Source of the DNA: Hexactinellida sp. DTS-2022
Lineage: Eukaryota > Porifera > Hexactinellida
DNA length: 64,000 nucleotides
Direction of reading: 5' to 3'
Assembly (NCBI GenBank): GCA_028753945.1
Contig: JAPNXP010000012.1
Coordinates: forward strand, 1,116,001-1,180,000
Of this stretch, positions 1,540 to 62,602 are shown piece by piece. Position 1 is the first letter of the stretch; each line of letters opens with the position of its first letter. Below the pieces are notes generated by a model. That model saw nothing but the letters and a program-made list of their open reading frames with translations, made no database searches and was not told the DNA's origin. The position numbers and the translations under genes were made by a program.

Positions 1540-4440
1540 TCATGATTTTTCCTTTGCCATCAGATATATATTTAGGACAGACTCTCTCTTTGCAGGAGCA
1601 ATAGCCTCAGGCAAAGGAGTCATTGTCAATTGGGAACTTGGGAATGTTTCATTCAATAGAGAACATATTTCATCTATTTCTTCTATGGGCTCAATATGAG
1701 AAGAGGATTTAAAAACTTCCCTATAGACTACATTTCTAATCCAAACTTCCCCAGATTTTGATTTGTCAGTTCCACATACCATTATTTTTAGTCCCAATGG
1801 ATTTTTAACTCTACTCAATGCAACATAGAGTTGGCCATGACTAAAAATGGCTTCAGGGGAAGGCAGATATAGACCAACGGTATCCAAACTCTGACCTTGC
1901 CCTTTGTTAATTGTGATACAATAGGCTAAGCGGATTGGAAACTGCCTCCTCTGAGAATAAATGGAAGTTCAGACTCAGAAGAAGTCAATATAATTCGTGG
2001 TATAAACACTCGCTTAGGATTATTTGTACCAGTTGCGATCTCCGCGTCAATTACTCGGTTTGAGAATGCTCTAATAATCAACCGAGTACCATTACAAAGA
2101 CCCTCATCGGGATCAAGGTTACGCAATAGAATTACAGTCGCAAACAATTTCAAGAATAGCCGATGAGGAGGCATACCGTTAGGAGTGATGTAATTTAAAA
2201 ACTCATTTGGAAAATTTACTGCAGCAGAACCTTCTACAGAATCTGCGCTCAACAGAGTTATACCATCACCAGGAAGCTGATGAATTACGTAATCGTTTAT
2301 TAAATCAGCTGTATCATTTTTAGGACACAGAATAATTTTTTGACTTACATAATCACGATCAGCATAATTTACATTTATATCACCATAGACTGAAGTAACC
2401 AGGTACTACAAATTTGTTATCTATGTGAATCATTTGATTGTCATCCTCAGGTTCAGTACCTTCTCCCACTCTTAATAAAAAGTTGGAAAATTTACTGACC
2501 TCAAGGGTTCCTTGTGACAATAATGTTTGGAGGCGCATATTTATAGTTAGCTTCATTACTTTAACATAACGCCAGAGATATGACCTGTTCAGACAGGAAG
2601 AGACCACTTCAGCTCTCGACCCATGCTTAACCACAGGGGGTATCTGGCGGAAGTCGCCTCCAAAAACCATTACTTTGCCACCAAAGGGGAGATCACAGGA
2701 ACATATATCCCTCAAACTGCGATCAACACACTCAGCTACATGCTTATTTGACATGCACGCTTCATCCCATAGCAAAAGTTTTGTACGCTTAATTAGCTGT
2801 GCCAAAGCACTCTGTTTCGAAATGTTACATACAGATAACTCATTGATATCAATGAGAACTTTCAACCTAGAGTGGACAGTCCGCCCTCCTGCGAGGAGGA
2901 GAGCGGCTATGCCACTGCTAGCTAACCCAAGGGCAATTTGACTCTTCGAGCGAACTTGAGCCAAAAGTATATTATAAAGGAATGTCTTCCCTGTGCCCCC
3001 GGGACCATCTACAAAGAATATTTTGGGATACTGCTCAGGATCATTACCGCTGCTATTATCGAGGTAAATACACTAAGCTGATCAGAATTAAGAGAAGGAA
3101 CATCATGAACAACTATTGCTAGTTGCTCATCAACGTTATAATCTAATTCTCTCTGAATTATAAGAGCCTCCTCGAATGGACTTCTGGTGTGAATGGGTGT
3201 TGGCATCCCTGGGAAATCAGCTAGAGATTTACCCTGGTTTTGCAACGCTTATCAATATCCACTAATACAGCATTAAGTATGTGCTCATCGACCTCAATAT
3301 CGGGCACAGATTTTCTAGCACGATGCAGAAAGTCATCAGAAAAAGCAAATTTATACTTTTCCCAAAGATCCGCAGGATTACATGGTTCGTTATAGAGTAG
3401 AATGGTAACGAATAGATGACGTAACTGTGGAGGCATATGCCACGAAGTAGCCATATCCAAACACATATAATATTTGCTATCATCTTCCAGCAATCCGCGG
3501 TGGCATGCGGCCTTCTTGAAGGTACCACAGACAGTTCCGTCAGGAAGAGTACGAATAGACTGTCGAATAGCCTCAATGCTTGTACAGCCAGTGACGTGAT
3601 TCAACAGAATTCTCAAGTAGAACCGCTCTCCCTCAGTTGGATGAGCAGAAAACACTCGGCCAACCATCTTACCGTGCTCCTTAACTCGCGGCTTTCATTC
3701 TCGCTTAGTTTTATCCCATACAAAATATTCAGGAAAATCTAAGTAAGAGATTGCCCGAGCAGATGGAAATTTTTGGTTAGCTAGAAACCATCCTATTAAA
3801 GTGGAATGTTTTTCTACACTTAACACATCCTCAATATCAGCGTCATCTCGAAAAACGACAGATTGGTGATTTTCAAGATGAAGAGCTAACCTCATCACAT
3901 GTGGCAGATTAGCATGGAGATCGTAAGAAAATATTCTATAGCAAGCCTCACATGCAGATATATACCGAGCTTCCACATAATTAGATACTTCGTCTACCTT
4001 CCGAGGTTTATCAGTGTGATCACCCGACTGGAACTCGATAATGGCTCGGTCATGGCCTTTATAGACATACTTTAGAGGTACTTAACTGCTCTAACTGTGC
4101 TGCAAATTTCAACGTTAATGTGAGCATTATACTTTAACAAAAGGTATGGATAATATGGTACAACCCAGCGATTGTGAAGCTTCATGCCTGCTACCTCTAC
4201 AGTAAGGGAGTTATCTCTGCGCCGATACAATGGGTAACCATCCTTAGTGGTTGTAGTAAAGTTAGAGAATTTCTTTGGGTATTGATTAGAACATGAACCA
4301 TTGCGCATACAAACAGTAGCCTTCTTTACAGTACCACATGGACCATGTAACATACAGCGCTTCACAATCTGATGCAATCACGGATTGAGATCAGGATCAG
4401 GAAGTTCAGCACACACAATCTTATCGTAATCAAGCAATTG
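1540..4440 (-). pseudogene. Helitron PIF1-like helicase, multiply frameshifted
   Basis: Minus-strand coding remnants run continuously from about 4440 down to 1540 in several frames. N-terminal pieces (4377-4072, 3976-3695, 3667-3221) contain Helitron-type strings such as CMLHGPCG, GYPLYRRRD, NRWVVPYYPYLLLKYNAHIN, YISACEACYRIFS and EGERFYLRILL. The PIF1 helicase core follows: Walker A GPGGTGKT (about 3000-2970), Walker B LLWDEACM and FGGDFRQIPPV (2964-2380), and motif [13 protein letters not shown] (near 1840). At least four breaks are visible, including a TGA just upstream of LHQIVKRC near 4380 and a 2-nt loss near 4066. The Rep/HUH nuclease region is absent; the MULE end array begins about where it would be. 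It is a dead rolling-circle transposon. Confidence 0.9.
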
Positions 4441-10615: not shown

Positions 10616-11576
10616 AGGGATCGTAGTGATCCATTGGATCTCTATGATGATCTCGAATTAGTGCAACGTTTTCGCTTCTCAAGGTCAGCAATTTTTAAAT
10701 AACTGAATTGATACAAAATCATCTCAACTGCACTGATAGATCCCATGCTGCACATCCACACGTACAAGTATGCGTCGCTCTACAATTTTTTGCTTCGGGT
10801 ACGTTTCAAATTATTTGTGGAGATGGAGTTCACGTGAGTCAACCATCAGCGTGTAGGTACATAAGAGCTGTTGCACTTGGGCTGCAATCAGTGTATTCAT
10901 CTTTTATCAGTATGCCAAGTCCTGCTGAGAAAGCAACGATTAAGTCTCAGTTTTATGAGTTAGCCCATTTGCCTGGAGTTCTTGGACTTGTGGAAGGAAC
11001 ACATATTCGCATCCAGAAGCCTTCTCAGGATGAAGCTGATTATGTAAACAGACACTTCTACCATTCAATATATGTTCAAGTATCTGTAGACCTGATGGAA
11101 GATTCTCCGATGTGTTAGCAAGATTTCTAGGATGAGTGCAGGATTCTAGAATTTGGAAACTTTCACAAGTCGGAATATTTGTAGAAAATAACTTCTTGGT
11201 TGGAGAACACATACTAGGGGATAGTGGTTACATGTTGAGGCAGTGTCTGTTGACACCATATAGACAACTTGCTTCAATAGAACTATAATTATGCACACAC
11301 AAAAACACGTGTACTGATTGAACAAACTTTCGGAAGATGCAAGCGCAGATTTCATTGCCTACATGGGGAGATCCGAATGGCTCCTGACAAGGTTTGCACC
11401 ATTATTGCTTCATGTGCTGTGCTACATAATATGGCTATAGTTTGGAACAACCAATGCTGGACGATTCGCCTATTGACCAACTTATGGATGAACCTATTGT
11501 AATTAAAGAATTGGGTCACTGGGCTGCTAAGCATTACGGAGACCAATTTGAAATTCATAATTTTGATTGAAATTTA
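10616..11576 (+). pseudogene. Harbinger (HARBI1-like) DDE transposase
   Basis: The reading begins RDRSDPLDLYDD then FRFSRSAIF (10616-10701), shifts frame, and continues VQVCVALQFFASGTFQ, VSQPSACRYI, GVLGLVEGTHIRI and YVNRHFYHSIYVQ (10708-11118). After another break come DSRIWKL, LGDSGYMLRQCLLTPYR, and [22 protein letters not shown] with CAVLHN (to about 11450). These are the ordered blocks of PIF/Harbinger transposase. The Asp of the usual IDGTHI block is Glu here (VEGTHI), while the GDSGY Asp and the EQTFG Glu remain. At least three frame breaks plus the lost catalytic Asp make it inactive. Confidence 0.88.
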
Positions 11577-55627: not shown

Positions 55628-55975
55628 TACTACTAATTATAGGATACAGGCAAAAGTGAGAGCATATTTGCATTCATATATCGAGTGATAGTATAATGTT
55701 ATGAAAAATTGTTCACTAAATCACTAAATCACTCTCATAAGTTCTACCTGTGACTTATAACTTATTCGTAGTTAATTCAGTTCAGTATGTGCTACTTGGG
55801 AGCCAAGGTATGTCAATAAATATCTCTATAATAATAATGGTGAAACGAAAAATCTAAAATAACAGCTGTGCCGACAGCATTGCTTTTGGAGGCACTACCA
55901 ATCAAACTACCACCAAAATGTAGTGCCTCTAAAGAAACATACTGTCGGCACAACTGGAATTTCAGATTATTATGC

Positions 55976-56010: not shown

Positions 56011-56369
56011 GTACTGAACACCTCAAGTATTTTGGGAGCCAAGGTATGTCAACTAATTAATTAATGCAATTTAAAACCAAAGATTTACCTTCTGCGTAAT
56101 AAATTGTTTGATTAATTCGCTGGATTACTCTCATCAATATGTCATATATTAGCAGAGAAATAGGTCAATAAATCGTGTAATATATATATACGTAGATATA
56201 TAATTCATAATTGCTATTGGTAATATGTAAGCATACTTAAAATAGAACGTATAAGGTTACACTTATGGGAGAATACAACTGGTACAGTCAGTATAAGGCA
56301 CTCAGCTTATGCATACAGGGCATTGAGAAGTTATCACAGTTAATCAGTTTCAAGAAACAACTAACACTA

Positions 56370-57739
56370 ATGGCAGAGAGGAACCCCCGAATCCCTCACT
56401 CCATACAGTCTCTGCTGTACGAGGAGAGGAGAGGGAAGTACTGTGGGTACAAACTCGAGCTAATTAGTGATACAATAAGTTCTGATTTGAAAGGATTCCT
56501 GATTTGTTCAGAATGCAAGGGGATAAGTAGAATGGCTAGACAAGTGGGAGCAAATACAGTTTGTGAAATGTGTGCCATAGGAACAGCTGGAAATCTCGAT
56601 GAGAGAGTTGAAAATAAAGTGAAATCTCTAAACTCAAAGTGTCCTCTGTCGGGAAATGGCTGTGATTGGGAAGGGGTGTTGGGGGAAATAGAACAACATA
56701 TGGAAGTGTGTTTGAAGGTGTTGGTAAAATGTGAGCTGGATGTGGCATGGCATTTGAGAGAGAAAATACAGAAGAACACAACAAAGAAGTATGTCCACTG
56801 AGAATCATAGAATGCCAGTATTGCAGAATAGAAATACAAGCAAATAAAGAGAACCATCACATAGGGGAGTGTACGAATCATCCAGACACAGAAATAGCAT
56901 GCCCTTATAAGGAGTTAGGCTGTGACGAAATAGTCCTAAGGAGGAATAAGAACGTACACCTAGCAGATAATATTATTGGTCACCAGAAGTTAATGCTAGA
57001 TCAATTGAGTCAGCTGAGAAGTAGGAACCAACAGCTGGAACAACTCAATGAAGAACTGAAAAATAAGTACCACCAACAGGAAATGTTCAGCAATCAACAA
57101 GAAAGAGTCAACAAACAACAAGAAAGAGTCAACAAACACCATAAATATAGGATTGAGACAATTGAGGCATCAGCAACAAATAAAAAGGGGAAAGATAAAC
57201 GCACAAGGAAGGTGTGGGTCATGATAGAACTGGTTCTAGCAGTAATAGCAGTTGTGTTGGCAGCTATAATAGGAATATCTGTAGCTGCAAGCTTTGCAAA
57301 TGGAATTCAATACAATTTAGAGCAAATACAGTCTTTAAAAGAAAGCACAAGTCACATTAGTGAATACATATCAGAAAGAGGAAAGGTTCTACCGGGAATA
57401 GAATGGATACATGGTTTGGAAGAGACAGGTTATGTCTACGGACCCAGCTTCTATCTGGAACGGTGCAACCTGAGAATCAAAGCAAAAGTATTTAGTAATG
57501 GTGTTGCATATTACTTTATACAAAGATTGAATGGAAAGTATGATGAATCAATCAATAGCTGCATCATAACATATATCTATTTTACATATTGGTACGCTGA
57601 TGAAATTATAAAGGACGACTCAAATGATAAGAATAGAATCCTGACAGTTGGCCAAGATTCCTATTTTCTTGAAATAAATTGGATATCATCGAAAGGAGAA
57701 GTAAGAATAAGAGCCTATTTCTACGCAGTAGTGGATTGA
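56370..57739 (+). pseudogene. TRAF-type zinc-finger membrane protein, copy 1 (one frameshift)
   Basis: Start taken at MAERNPRI (56370), since upstream sequence contains an indel in the duplicate; the frame is open from 56265. Order: a Cys-rich segment (FLICSECKG, TVCEMC); TRAF-type zinc fingers (CPLSGNGCDWEGV, then CPLRIIECQYC, HHIGECTNH, CPYKELGCDEI); a Gln/Glu-rich coiled coil; a membrane helix (WVMIELVLAVIAVVLAAIIG); and a ~140-residue C-terminal domain (GYVYGPSFYL, YYFIQRLNGKYDESINSC) that weakly resembles a MATH/TRAF-C domain. A 1-nt loss near 56745 relative to copy 2 breaks the frame between the first and second zinc-finger blocks. TRAFs are normally cytosolic, so a membrane helix here is unusual. 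No introns. Confidence 0.65.
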
Positions 57740-58129: not shown

Positions 58130-58454
58130 GGGGCCAAGCCCCAAAGGACTTAAGCCCTTTGGACTTAAGCCCATTTTTGAGAGGGCTTAAATCCGGACTT
58201 AAGTCCTCCTTTAATAAAGGGCTTAAGTCCGGACTTGGACTTAAGCCCTTTATAGATGAGCTTCAAGCCCTTTCAAGCCCTTTTTCAAGGCACTTATTCA
58301 ATAAAATACGGTATGGATTTCTAAATAATGAGAGTAAAAGACTTAAGTCCGGACTTAAGCCCTTTTCAAAAAGGGCTTAGAAAAGGGCTTGGGCTTAAGC
58401 CCTTCTGATAAGGGATGGGCTTGGACTTAAGCCCTTTTGAAAGGGCTTGACCCC
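58130..58454. repeat. Cluster of ggacttaagccc palindromes
   Basis: More than twelve copies of gggcttaagtcc or its inverse, many as the palindrome gggcttaagtccggactt. Outer ends ggggccaagccc and gggcttgacccc are inverse, with possible ATG flanks. Likely a small element built of its own palindromic end motif, or a palindromic minisatellite. Confidence 0.75.
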
Positions 58455-58557
58455 ATGTCTGAACAGTAGTATAGGGTGTAGAGTTGGTCAAGTTTGTTAA
58501 AAGGTTGTCCAGAGGTCTGTCAACAGGATTAACAATTCTAGTTACCAGAATAACGTA

Positions 58558-58650: not shown

Positions 58651-60677
58651 TCTCAAAAGTTCTACCTGTGACTTATAACTTATACGTAGTTAACTCAGTA
58701 ATAAACATCTTTATAGTGATGATTACGTGATGAAAAATCTAAAATAACAGCTGTGCCGACAGCATTTCTTTTGAAGGCACTACCAATCAAACCACCACCA
58801 AAATATAGTGCCTCTAAAGAAACATTCTGTCGGCACAGCTGTAATTTCAGATTTTTTATATATATAGTTTTGCAACGGATCGGTGCTACACACCAAGTAT
58901 TTGGGAGCCAGGTAGGTCAGCTAATTAATTAATGCTGTTAACTAACCCAAGATTTACCTTCTGAGTAATAAATTGTTGATTAATTCGCTGCACTACTCTC
59001 ATCAATATGTCATGTATTATGCAGAAGATATAGGTCAGTAAATCGTGTAATATTATAGATAGATATATAATTCATAATTGCTATTTGGTAATATTTAAGT
59101 ATACTTAAAAATAGAACGTATAAGGTTACAATACAACTTGTACAGTCAGTATAAGGCAACTCAGCTTATGCATACAGGGCATTGAGAAGTTATCACAGTT
59201 AATCAGTTTCAAGAAACAACTAACACTAATGGCAGAGAGGAACCCCCGAATCCCTCACTCCATACATTCTCTGATGTACGTGGAGAGGAGAGGGAAGTAC
59301 TGTGGGTACAAACTGGAGCTAATTAGTGATACAATAAGTTCTGATTTGAAAGAATTCCTGATTTGTTCAGAATGCAAGGGGATAAGTAGAAGCGCTAGAC
59401 AAGTGGGAGGAAATACAGTTTGCGACATGTGAGTCACTGTTAGAGATAAATCTGTTGACGAGAGAGTTGAAAATAAAGTGAAATCTCTAAACTCAAAATG
59501 TCCTTTAATAGAAAATGGCTGTAGCTGGTTAGGAGTGATAAGGGAAATTGAAGAACACATGCTTTTTTGTTCAAAACTGGTGATACAATGTGAGTTGGAA
59601 TATGGTATGGCATTTGAGAGAGAAAACACAGAAGAACACAACAAAGAGGAATGTCCACTGAGAATGAAAGAGTGCCAATATTGCAAACAGCAAGTACAAG
59701 TAAATAAAGAGAACCATCACATAGGGGAGTGTACGAATCATCCAGAGATGGAAATAAGATGCCCCTATAAGGAGTTAGGCTGTGAAGCAATAGTCCTAAG
59801 GAGGAATAAGGACATACACCTAACAGAGAATACGATTAGTCACCAGAAGCTAGTGCTAGATCAACTGAATCAGCTGAGAAATAGGAACCGACAGCTGGAA
59901 CAACTCAATGGAGAACTGAAAAATAAGTACCACCAACAGGAAATGTTCAGCAATCAACAAGAAAGAGTCAACAAACAACAAGAAAGAGTCAACGAACAAC
60001 ATAAAGATAGGATGGGGATAATTGAGGAATCAGCAATAAATAAAAAGTTGAATGATAAACGTACAAGGAAGGTGTGGGTCATAATAGAACTGGTTCTAGC
60101 TGGAATAGCAGTTGTGTTGGCAGCTATAATAGGAATATCTGTAGCTGCGAGCTTTGCAAATGGAATACAATACAATTTAGAGAAAATACAGGTCAATTCA
60201 CAACAAACAAACTCCAATTTAGAGAAAATACAGGCCAATTCAAGGGAAACAAACTCCAATTTAGAGAAAATAGAGGCTATAATATTTAGACATTAGTGAA
60301 CACATACAAGTGAACACAAGTCACATTAGTGAATATATATCAGGAAGAGGAAAGATTCTACCGGGAATAGAATTGAAACATGGCTTGGAAGAGACTGGTT
60401 ATGTCTACGGACCCAGCTTTTATCTGAAACGGTGCAACCTGAGACTCAGAGCATACTTATATAGAAGTGGTTATGCAAGTTACTATATACAAAGAGTGAA
60501 AGGAAAGTATGATCACTCAATCAATAGCTGCATCATAACATATATCTATTTTACATATGGGTAGGCTGATGAAATTGAACCTATAAACGACGATTCAAGT
60601 GCTACGAAGCGAACCCTTACAGTTGGCGACAGTTCCTATATTCATAATATATACTGGGGATCATCGAGTAGAGAAGT

Positions 60678-60914
60678 TGTGATGACGGGCTGACAGGAGT
60701 GCACTAGAGGGATCCTAGTGTAGGTGGGTTGTGCTTAGTACCTGTTGTAGGAGAACGGCATGGCTCACTGGTAACTAGAACTGGAGTAGACCAGTTGTAG
60801 TGTGGTCGAGGGTTACCCTCCTGATGAGTCCTTGTGATAGGACGAAACCACTTCCACCACATGTAGTATCCCGGTGGGTGTGAGATACATTTACGGTGTC
60901 TCATGCTCACCACA
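60678..60914 (+). mobile_element. Retrozyme-like solo LTR, 237 bp
   Basis: Ends TGTGATGA and TCACCACA (TG...CA with a short imperfect inverse), flanked by the 4-bp duplication aagt at 60674-60677 and 60915-60918. Copy 1 of the duplicated gene gives the empty site (gaagtaagaataagag at about 57700-57715), which fits exactly with one aagt. It encodes no protein and holds a hammerhead ribozyme. LTR ends, 4-bp duplication, small size and a type III hammerhead are the features of retrozymes known from plants; here the rest of the element (second LTR, primer site) is absent, so it is a solo LTR. Confidence 0.82.
60802..60851 (+). ncRNA. Hammerhead ribozyme, type III, in the LTR-like element
   Basis: Helix III 5' strand gtgg (60802-60805), cleavage triplet guc with cut predicted after 60807. 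Helix I gaggg (60808-60812), loop tta, ccctc (60816-60820). Core ctgatga (60821-60827). Helix II gtcc (60828-60831), loop ttgtgata, ggac (60840-60843). Core gaaa (60844-60847). Helix III 3' strand ccac (60848-60851). All conserved core bases are intact. Helix III has four pairs plus the core A-U. Confidence 0.9.
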
Positions 60915-61003
60915 AAGTAATAATAAGAGCCTATTTCGACGCATAAGTGGATTGATTTCGTTTGTATAAATAAGTTAGCTGTAGTTAACTGAATTAATTA
61001 CTC

Positions 61004-61541
61004 ATGAATAATTATATTATAAATACTACTGGATTTATTCATACATACAGTATAGACTTTACTATGTTTGAATCAGCAATCGATATTGGAAATGAGGTTG
61101 TATCCCTATTATTATCTGTAATATCTTTCCCTATTCGTATTAGTGTACTATGTACGGAGGAGATACAAGCTGTATCGAGAGATAAAGAGAGTTCCACAGG
61201 AACTGCTCTGGAAGGACTCGTATAGGAACCATCTTAAGAATCTCAGGTTAAAGTGTGTTATCCATAATTTCGTTATTATCATTTTAGTGATGGAATTTGT
61301 CCGAAGTGTAGGCTATATACTCTTTTCACTTCCTTCGTGGTTCATATATTTTGGAAATGAGAGCTCTGGTTTGAAAGCATATCAATATAATATTGAAACT
61401 TTTAGCTACGATTATATTCTTAGCCTATCATATCTGTTTGTCCCTGTACTGTGCCTATTCATGAAGTTCCTTTGGTTGGCATATAGGAAGCTCGAATACA
61501 GATATACCATCATTAGATGGACATGGTACATAGCTATATAG
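61004..61541 (+). pseudogene. Multi-pass membrane protein fragment, frameshifted
   Basis: A first frame (61004-61225) includes NEVVSLLLSVISFPIRISV, a membrane helix. A second frame from about 61143 continues YYVRRRYKLYREIKRVPQEL, then hydrophobic segments (CVIHNFVIIILVMEFVRSV, ILFSLPSWFIYF, YILSLSYLFVPVLCLFMKFL) to a stop at 61541. A one-base shift near 61146 joins them. The pattern of helices with basic loops resembles a GPCR-like or other lineage-specific multi-pass protein, but I recognise no family. The rest of the gene, if any, is cut by the element that starts at 61546. Confidence 0.45.
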
Positions 61542-61545
61542 TGCT

Positions 61546-62526
61546 GTTGTATGACAGTTTTACTACCATGACAGACTTACTACCTCTATTACTAGTACCA
61601 TGGATGTTCTCTATCTATGACAGATTTACTACCTTACATGACAGAATTACTACCCTTTGATCATGACTTGAGTTCTCATCACGCAACTCTTAGTTCTACT
61701 TGACTATTACTATGCACTTTTATTGGCTTCTTTCTTACTCTACTTGACTAAATACAAACAGCATGTATTCAAATTATTAGGAAATGGTAATTCATTTATA
61801 TTATTTTATTTACTCATCGATTTAAGAAAGTACACAAATTATAGTCTTGATTCAAGAAATCACATACAATAATGAATATCTCTGAATATTTAAAGCTTGT
61901 GAATTTTCTTTCCCATGTAATTTTTCCGAACGATTTATTGAACTCAACAAAATTCGCGAGACGAAATTTTGAAGTGCGTGCCTCAGGCTATCAACTTGGT
62001 GAAGTTATTGACATGATACATAGTCATATACAACTTTTTTTTACACAGACAGCTTCAGTGATGCAATGATTATTGAGTAGAGCGTAATATATTATCAGAT
62101 TTCCCAATAGGTTTGTTATGTATGTATTGTTAAATCCATTAAAAGGTCCTATCTCCGATGTTAGAATAATTATCTATTTGCTATACCGTTCACAATGCTA
62201 TACATATTAATTAACCTAGTGAATAATGAATACGGGGAAGGCGGATGTGGAAATGTCAATTATATAGATGATAGAGCAAGTCAAATTCAATAAATTTTTT
62301 AAAGATACAAGTAAATACTTCCTATATTGAATACATGCTGTTTGTATTTAGTCAAGTAGAAGAAAGAAAGAAGCCATTAAAAGTGCATAGTAATAGTCAA
62401 GTCATGATCAAAGGGTAGTAATTTTGTCATGTAAGGTAGTAAATCTGTCATGGATAGAGAACATCCATGGTACTAGTAATAGAGGTAGTAAGTCTGTCAT
62501 GGTAGTAAAACTGTCATACAACAGTG
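61546..62526. mobile_element. Inverted-repeat element with atgacag/ttactacc repeats
   Basis: Left ctgttgtatgacag at 61546 pairs with ctgtcatacaacag near 62512-62526. The arms (about 220 bp, with an internal indel) are inverse copies and include five atgacaga-ttactacc repeats, catggatgttctctatc and aaatacaaacagcatgtatt. Flanks allow a TG duplication. The centre has one short frame (61872-62069, 65 aa, NISEYLKLVNFLSHVIF) without recognised family. Confidence 0.8.
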
Positions 62527-62602
62527 CTAAGAGTTATTATGTGTACTTCGTACTTTTTAATTGCACAATTATTTCCTAATGATTATCAATATTTCGCCGA
62601 GG

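Follow-up and report, generated by a model that had tools for sequence, protein, structure and literature searches.

Insertion of a ribozyme-bearing repeat into a duplicated gene

The window, a stretch of 64,000 nucleotides, carries two direct, tandem copies of a gene region of the TRAF zinc-finger type, 2.86-3.2 kb apart, of which the first has a zinc finger scoring just below the Pfam cut-off and the second hosts a short insertion (Table 1). The inserted element begins with TGTGATGA and ends with TCACCACA (in a longer terminal reading, TGTGATGACGGG...CTCACCACA), and, as the initial annotation had described, this 237-bp TG...CA unit lies in the second gene copy with an exact AAGT on both sides. 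The annotation had also taken the first copy for the uninterrupted site. Indeed, once the element and one AAGT are removed, the flanks align to the upstream copy without a gap across its AAGT, the gaps lying further off. The insertion is thus demonstrated by an empty paralogue.

Table 1. Positions of the window element, its insertion site and host gene copies, and of two LTR elements elsewhere in the genome. Positions without a prefix are those of the window; others are preceded by the locus.
Feature	Position	Strand	Basis
Left target-site duplication AAGT	60674..60677	.	Letters and count of target-site duplications
Family A single repeat (LTR-like unit), 237 bp, TGTGATGA...TCACCACA	60678..60914	+	
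Unit positions 1-180 (5' segment and hammerhead), common to both ends of composite L020	60678..60857	+	
Type III hammerhead ribozyme; cut predicted between 60807 and 60808	60800..60853	+	RF00008, 58.3 bits
U5-like 3' segment with CA at its end, followed in some other copies by a stem-loop	60858..60914	+	
Right target-site duplication AAGT	60915..60918	.	
Empty (uninterrupted) site AAGT in the first gene copy	57699..57702	.	Repeat family D15 and flank alignment
Tandem TRAF-type zinc-finger gene region, second copy, approximate; host of the insertion	59159..60955	+	
Tandem TRAF-type zinc-finger gene region, first copy, approximate	56300..57739	+	
Gypsy-order LTR element with one ORF, 1427 aa	L092:1483-6144		
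Gypsy-order LTR element with one ORF, 1499 aa	L093:1416-6298		

The proposal that the element codes for nothing agrees with the ORFs of the window, since none of at least 120 aa overlaps it (26 listed). Similarly, the type III hammerhead recognized inside it from the letters matched the Rfam model RF00008 at 58.3 bits, against a gathering score of 48.5, and this was the sole Rfam match at the gathering threshold in the 64-kb window. The predicted cleavage site follows C60807, as read off the hammerhead consensus.

The annotation's "apparently animal" genome was corroborated by one protein of the window, 578 aa long and bearing a DUF7920 domain, for which 17 homologues were recovered. Among the named homologues, a glass-sponge protein (Oopsacas minuta, 66% identity) ranks first and mollusc proteins (36-40%) come next; six further ENA proteins (57-89%) rank above the molluscs. 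Going by this one protein, the host looks like a hexactinellid.

Several other repeats were noted in the same window. Adjoining the element is an inverted repeat with 133-bp arms that are 97% complementary (61539-62529), perhaps a separate foldback element or MITE. A palindromic repeat with GCTGTGCCGACAGC or a near variant occurs at 55848-55971 and 58730-58859, and similar sequence was seen by eye beside two ribozyme loci (L011 and L053), so that it may be a widespread small element. An array of GGACTTAAGCCC-type repeats occupies 58161-58464, and similar letters adjoin L054. A PIF1-like helicase fragment (2383-2964, minus strand) and a DDE_Tnp_4 match below the Pfam cut-off (10708-11115, plus strand) are perhaps remnants of DNA transposons.

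Related copies and ribozyme families in the host genome

We searched the host genome (112.4 Mb in 18 contigs) for further copies. Scoring 40 of 318 candidates yielded at least 51 DNA matches to the window unit, at least 30 of them near full length and 93-100% identical, in accordance with the expectation that other copies would exist. The exact hammerhead core, CTGATGAGTCC-N(3-14)-GGACGAAAC, occurs 192 times, compared with no occurrence of a reversed control. All 68 scored candidates of the RF00008 search matched the model, 64 of them above the cut-off, a count that is a lower bound because 68 of 12,319 first-look candidates were scored. The type I model RF00163 gave no match among 73 scored of 14,702 candidates, and its control likewise gave none, so that this absence carries no weight. 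The exact core pattern had no match in viral contigs and none in prokaryote genome contigs, a comparison with other eukaryotes outside its scope.

The first 80 loci contained 93 motif sites, 86 of them distinct. Grouping by eye on the flanking sequence gave the related families A, B, C, D, E, F, and H, with unit lengths of 237 bp in A (the window family), 231-232 bp in B, mostly 269-284 bp in C, and 325 bp in D (312 bp in one case). Automatic clustering merged 79 of the 86 distinct sites into one group. Beyond the ribozyme core of about 50 bp, most RF00008 loci share nothing with the window element.

A second, divergent lineage of type III-like hammerheads, with a GTA triplet and a GGCC stem II, was observed at L064:1066-1121 and L065:2599-2656. 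Its members, at 39.8 and 36.2 bits, respectively, fall short of the gathering cut-off, and at least 41 DNA matches were found in the genome when 40 of 76 candidates were scored. In L065 the element runs TGTCACGAAG...CTTCATGACA, with a short palindrome after it.

To assess conservation of the ribozyme, we collected 68 distinct cores from 110 sites and kept 62, leaving out six because of their register or length. Of the 62, 61 preserve CTGATGA and all preserve GAAA, and 56 have GTC as their cleavage triplet. Two-sided changes were found in stem II, at pairs 36-43 (TA in 34 cores, CG in 25), 34-45 (CG/TA), and 35-44 (CG/TA), and in stem III, at pairs 7-54 (TA/GC/AT) and 6-55 (GC/AT). The outer stem III pair, 5-56, also shows two-sided changes yet is poorly paired overall, and stem I has none across the 62 cores. 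Paired cells amount to 94.2%, more than in any of 1000 shuffles (maximum 93.2%), which leave relatedness in. Although the shuffles keep relatedness, the different two-sided changes in five pairs argue for pairing in stems II and III that reflects more than inheritance, in keeping with selection on the ribozyme.

Target-site duplications

The annotation had further anticipated 4-bp duplications at other copies. Exact ones flank 34 of 56 units, a count in which wrong inner ends were scored for L046 and L036, compared with 0.7% expected by chance from mismatched flank pairs; the remaining 22 units lack an exact duplication, and none of the same 56 has a duplication of 3, 5, or 6 bp. At the next downstream end, judged by eye, L046 reads GTGT/GTGT, which would add one match, and L036 again has none. 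Unit boundaries were set by family end motifs, and loci without two readable ends were excluded. For example, 24 family A loci were tried and L021 was excluded for want of a readable end, and L004 was counted twice, both times without a match. By class, exact duplications were found in 13 of 23 units of family A, 2 of 3 in B, 2 of 8 in C, 4 of 6 in D, and 1 of 2 in H. Among composite units the figures were 5 of 5 for direct and 7 of 9 for mirror-image composites, and these two classes form a non-random sample because composites were spotted during locus reading and most of their duplications had been seen before the count.

Direct two-repeat elements

Fuller elements had been predicted to carry two repeats and a primer-binding site. 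The former part was confirmed by two-repeat units of 0.55-0.7 kb; as to the latter, no tRNA primer site starting with TGG was seen after the repeat in the seven boxes read. In L020, L081, and L082, a 5' segment with hammerhead is followed by an internal part and then by a second 5' segment with hammerhead and a U5-like end. These elements measure 548, 684, and 684 bp, their hammerheads are 311, 385, and 385 nt apart, and the whole units are enclosed by AAAC, CTAC, and ATAG, respectively. L027, flanked by CTAG, resembles L020 except that its 5' repeat is incomplete and its 3' repeat is interrupted by a further, nested element. L019 consists of two single units in tandem inside CTCC, with hammerheads 238 nt apart. 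Family A internal sequence was found at just four loci among the matches listed (40 of 277 candidates scored), and single repeats therefore dominate.

In a comparison of six boxes by eye, a purine-rich box immediately before the 3' repeat was recognized in families A, D, and H and, more weakly, in C. It reads AAAGGGAAGGTGA before the repeat start TGTGACG in L086, AACAAGGGGGGTGA before TGTTATAG in L081, and GGAAGGGAACCTGA before TGTGATG in L020; in L083 the purine-rich character is less marked. In six composites (L020, L022, L027, L081, L082, and L084) the 5' repeat has no U5-like end, and the internal part begins shortly after the hammerhead. A standard LTR cycle would not predict this arrangement: a circle derived from such a copy would lack the U5-like end, so uncut RNA or a second template would have to supply it. 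Predicted folds of the circles are weak for L020 (z -1.5) and L082 (z -2.7) and stronger for L081 (-4.9) and L019 (-5.0), and G+C content is 51-53% in four units.

The many single repeats could stem from recombination or have been inserted directly. For the window element, initially termed a "solo LTR", an origin by recombination between two LTRs is unproved, and it may instead be a direct insertion of a single-repeat cDNA. An origin of all single repeats by recombination is likewise possible but unproven, and recombination does not explain the mirror-image units described below.

Mirror-image units and concatemers

The L086 concatemer measures 2.18 kb and contains five hammerheads together with five 325-bp repeats, all inside one CTAT duplication. 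Each repeat is identical to the first at no fewer than 324 of 325 positions, and hammerheads are 486 nt apart. The order is repeat, internal part, repeat, and stem-loop, followed by mirrored units with one partial end. Shorter mirror-image units are enclosed by ATAT (L022), CGTA (L048), ATAC (L083, L088, and L091), or CTAG (L084), and each has the repeat's 5' end on both of its outer sides. The turn point is a stem-loop just past the CA end of the repeat in L022, L048, L086, and L088; in L083 and L084 the turn is at a different place, and in L091 additional sequence stands there. L034 and L004 are mirror-image units without a matching duplication, and the arms of L034 come from two families. 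Overall, the sequence indicates that direct and mirror-image composites were each inserted as one unit.

Priming site and gypsy elements

A stem-loop follows the repeat in all 13 hand-picked stretches, which represent families A to E. In 12 of them the stem reaches several bases into the repeat end, and in L008 only one base does. Where copies are mirrored, the outer part of the stem-loop simply consists of the mirrored repeat; the extension is non-trivial in L083, L086, and L090, since internal sequence comes after it there. In four ribozyme elements compared, the complementary partner of the primer site lies within this stem-loop, exactly in families B, C, and D and inexactly in A. Within the repeat of these four elements, a complement to the primer site extends for only 5-7 nt, which is not above shuffles.

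Two of at least 150 loci with an rve domain were read at their ends. Both elements, L092 and L093, encode RVT_1, RNase H, and rve domains in Ty3/gypsy order between TGT...ACA repeats of 166 and 172 bp that are 100% identical within each element. L093 is flanked by ATAG/ATAG, and L092 by CTAG/CTAA, with one mismatch. In each, the bases that directly follow the repeat have a 12-nt complement within it, and equal or better complementarity arose in only 2 of 2000 mononucleotide shuffles for L092 and 1 of 2000 for L093. This complementarity is a mark of Tf1-like self-priming as set out in the available part of PMC4600332. The end boxes read GGAGGGAGGTGA before TGTCATGG in L092, GGGGAGGAGA before TGTTAGG in L093, and GGGAAGGTGA before TGTGACG in the ribozyme concatemer L086, a likeness judged by eye against two gypsy elements among at least 150 rve loci. 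When larger elements with the same post-repeat start were sought, 13 places were found, all within loci of 0.9-2.6 kb (L083 and L086-L091), among which no autonomous element was recognized. The ribozyme elements would thus use an enzyme related to that of L092 and L093, together with a primer fold of their own; the gypsy helper is a candidate lineage and not an identified element, because two of at least 150 rve loci were read.

Discussion

We consider it likely that a glass sponge harbours a non-autonomous, retrozyme-like retroelement of the LTR type with a type III hammerhead, and that the window element is one of its single-repeat copies. The repeat, the hammerhead, the ends, the 4-bp duplications, the purine-rich box, the stem-loop, and the composites are legible in the DNA; cleavage, circularisation, self-priming, and a gypsy helper are our inferences. 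A fuller element would consist of a repeat with hammerhead, a short non-coding internal part ending in the purine-rich box, and a second repeat with hammerhead. Its transcripts would cut themselves at both hammerheads, and the unit-length RNA (238, 311, 385, or 486 nt, depending on the copy) would be closed into a circle. A reverse transcriptase of the Ty3/gypsy type would copy the circle, with the stem-loop that follows the repeat, and not a tRNA, as its primer; at times it would complete more than one round or snap back at the stem-loop, and a gypsy integrase would insert the DNA with TGT...ACA ends, producing the 4-bp duplication. The broader reading, namely that LTR-type retrozymes exist in one of the earliest-branching animal lineages, self-primed from ribozyme-made circles with a post-repeat stem-loop in place of the tRNA primer, and that concatemers such as L086 are rolling-circle or snap-back products integrated by a Tf1/sushi-like gypsy integrase, we regard as evenly balanced.

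The foldback appearance of the mirror-image units, with their long inverted arms and 4-bp duplications in seven of nine cases, and the short inverted ends of single units (TGTGATGA/TCACCACA) would also suit a MITE or foldback element that transposes by cut and paste with the help of an integrase-like transposase (Ginger, for example) and carries the hammerhead by chance. Ginger-like elements combine such a transposase with TGTNR ends, and their ends and 4-bp sites would agree with those found here. We nevertheless think this origin unlikely, because the direct two-repeat units, the purine-rich box immediately before the 3' repeat, the stem-loop in the position of a primer site, the boxes resembling by eye those of two local gypsy elements, and the two-sided ribozyme changes together indicate an RNA stage.

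A second alternative is an ordinary TRIM-type miniature LTR retrotransposon whose hammerhead is a passenger with no role in mobility, and the size, the two terminal repeats, the absence of coding, and the occurrence of single and tandem forms all match such elements. The ribozyme is nonetheless the only part that most RF00008 loci have in common with the window element, and its stems covary, which makes a passenger quite improbable. Finally, assemblies are generally known to be error-prone at palindromes and arrays, so the mirror-image and concatemeric loci might be artefacts of assembly or amplification, with only the single repeats real. An artefact would not create the 4-bp duplications at the outer ends of seven of nine mirror-image units, and we hold this explanation to be very improbable; the copy number inside L086 could still be wrong.

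A retrozyme-like retroelement, our preferred reading, calls for comparison with the LTR retrozymes of plants (Cervera et al. 2016, PMC4918200), as portrayed in the available part of that source. Both have a type III hammerhead within the terminal repeat, TG...CA ends with 4-bp duplications (exact at 34 of 56 sponge units), two repeats around an interior that is putatively non-coding in the sponge (L086 has two full repeats in direct order), a purine tract, single repeats and multimers, and a highly paired predicted RNA; the Ty3/gypsy-like boxes of the plant elements may have a counterpart in the sponge, where the end boxes resemble by eye those of two local gypsy elements. The sponge elements differ in their animal host, their predicted units of 238-486 nt (600-1000 nt in plants), their mirror-image insertions, the six composites whose 5' repeat has no U5-like end, and their G+C content of 51-53% in four units, against more than 55% in plants (PMC7229834, in part). 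The tRNA-Met primer-binding site of the plant elements was not found, by its TGG start, in the seven sponge boxes read, where a self-complementary stem-loop takes its place. For want of that primer site the sponge elements are not classed as plant-type, though they would work like plant LTR retrozymes. The plant model, as given there, allows the direct insertion of single-repeat cDNA and proposes multimeric cDNA.

The non-LTR retrozymes of metazoans (Cervera and de la Pena 2020, PMC7229834, available part) share with the sponge elements an animal host, the unit size (theirs about 170-400 nt), tandem copies, and a hammerhead. Theirs is of type I, and according to that source the elements have no LTR, lack a primer site and a purine tract, are low in G+C, and show longer duplications where any occur. 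In contrast, the sponge elements have type III hammerheads matching RF00008, LTR-like TG...CA ends, 4-bp duplications, and, in four units, a G+C content of 0.51-0.53. Type III hammerheads as such have animal precedents: the discontinuous one in mammalian Clec2 genes (PMC6155905), those in HDV-like RNAs of toads and termites, and elements in insects mentioned without detail (both PMC7761336). The available parts of these sources describe no LTR-type element in any of the three cases.

TRIMs in bivalves (biv-TRIM), reported as the fourth animal case in PMC6934838, are likewise small, non-coding LTR elements of an animal host with single and tandem forms, and in the part of that source available to us they have no clear priming mechanism. 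The sponge elements show the short terminal repeats, putatively non-coding interior, and purine tract of TRIMs and, in the boxes read, no conventional primer site; they add a ribozyme and a post-repeat stem-loop, whereas the words "ribozyme" and "hammerhead" are absent from the main text on biv-TRIM. A further comparison is with the self-priming Tf1/Tj1/sushi group (PMC4600332, available part), to which the 12-nt complementarity between repeat and primer site in L092 and L093 is similar. The ribozyme elements are like this group in their self-complementary primer site and unlike it in their lack of coding and in having the partner, in four elements, in the downstream hairpin and not in the repeat. 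In the genome papers on Oopsacas and Aphrocallistes, the main text uses neither "ribozyme" nor "hammerhead". Searches of the open-licence PMC literature brought up no account of sponge hammerheads or of animal LTR retrozymes.

These elements would blur the split, as drawn in the available parts of PMC7229834 and PMC7761336, between type III LTR retrozymes from plants and type I, LTR-free retrozymes of animals. An abundant and partly young set of type III, LTR-like elements would provide a second system for studying the return of circular ribozyme RNA to DNA. The concatemers and mirror-image insertions, each within a single 4-bp duplication, resemble traces of the multimeric cDNA of the plant model (PMC4918200, available part), and they give sharp size predictions for such circular RNAs, of 238, 311, 385, and 486 nt.
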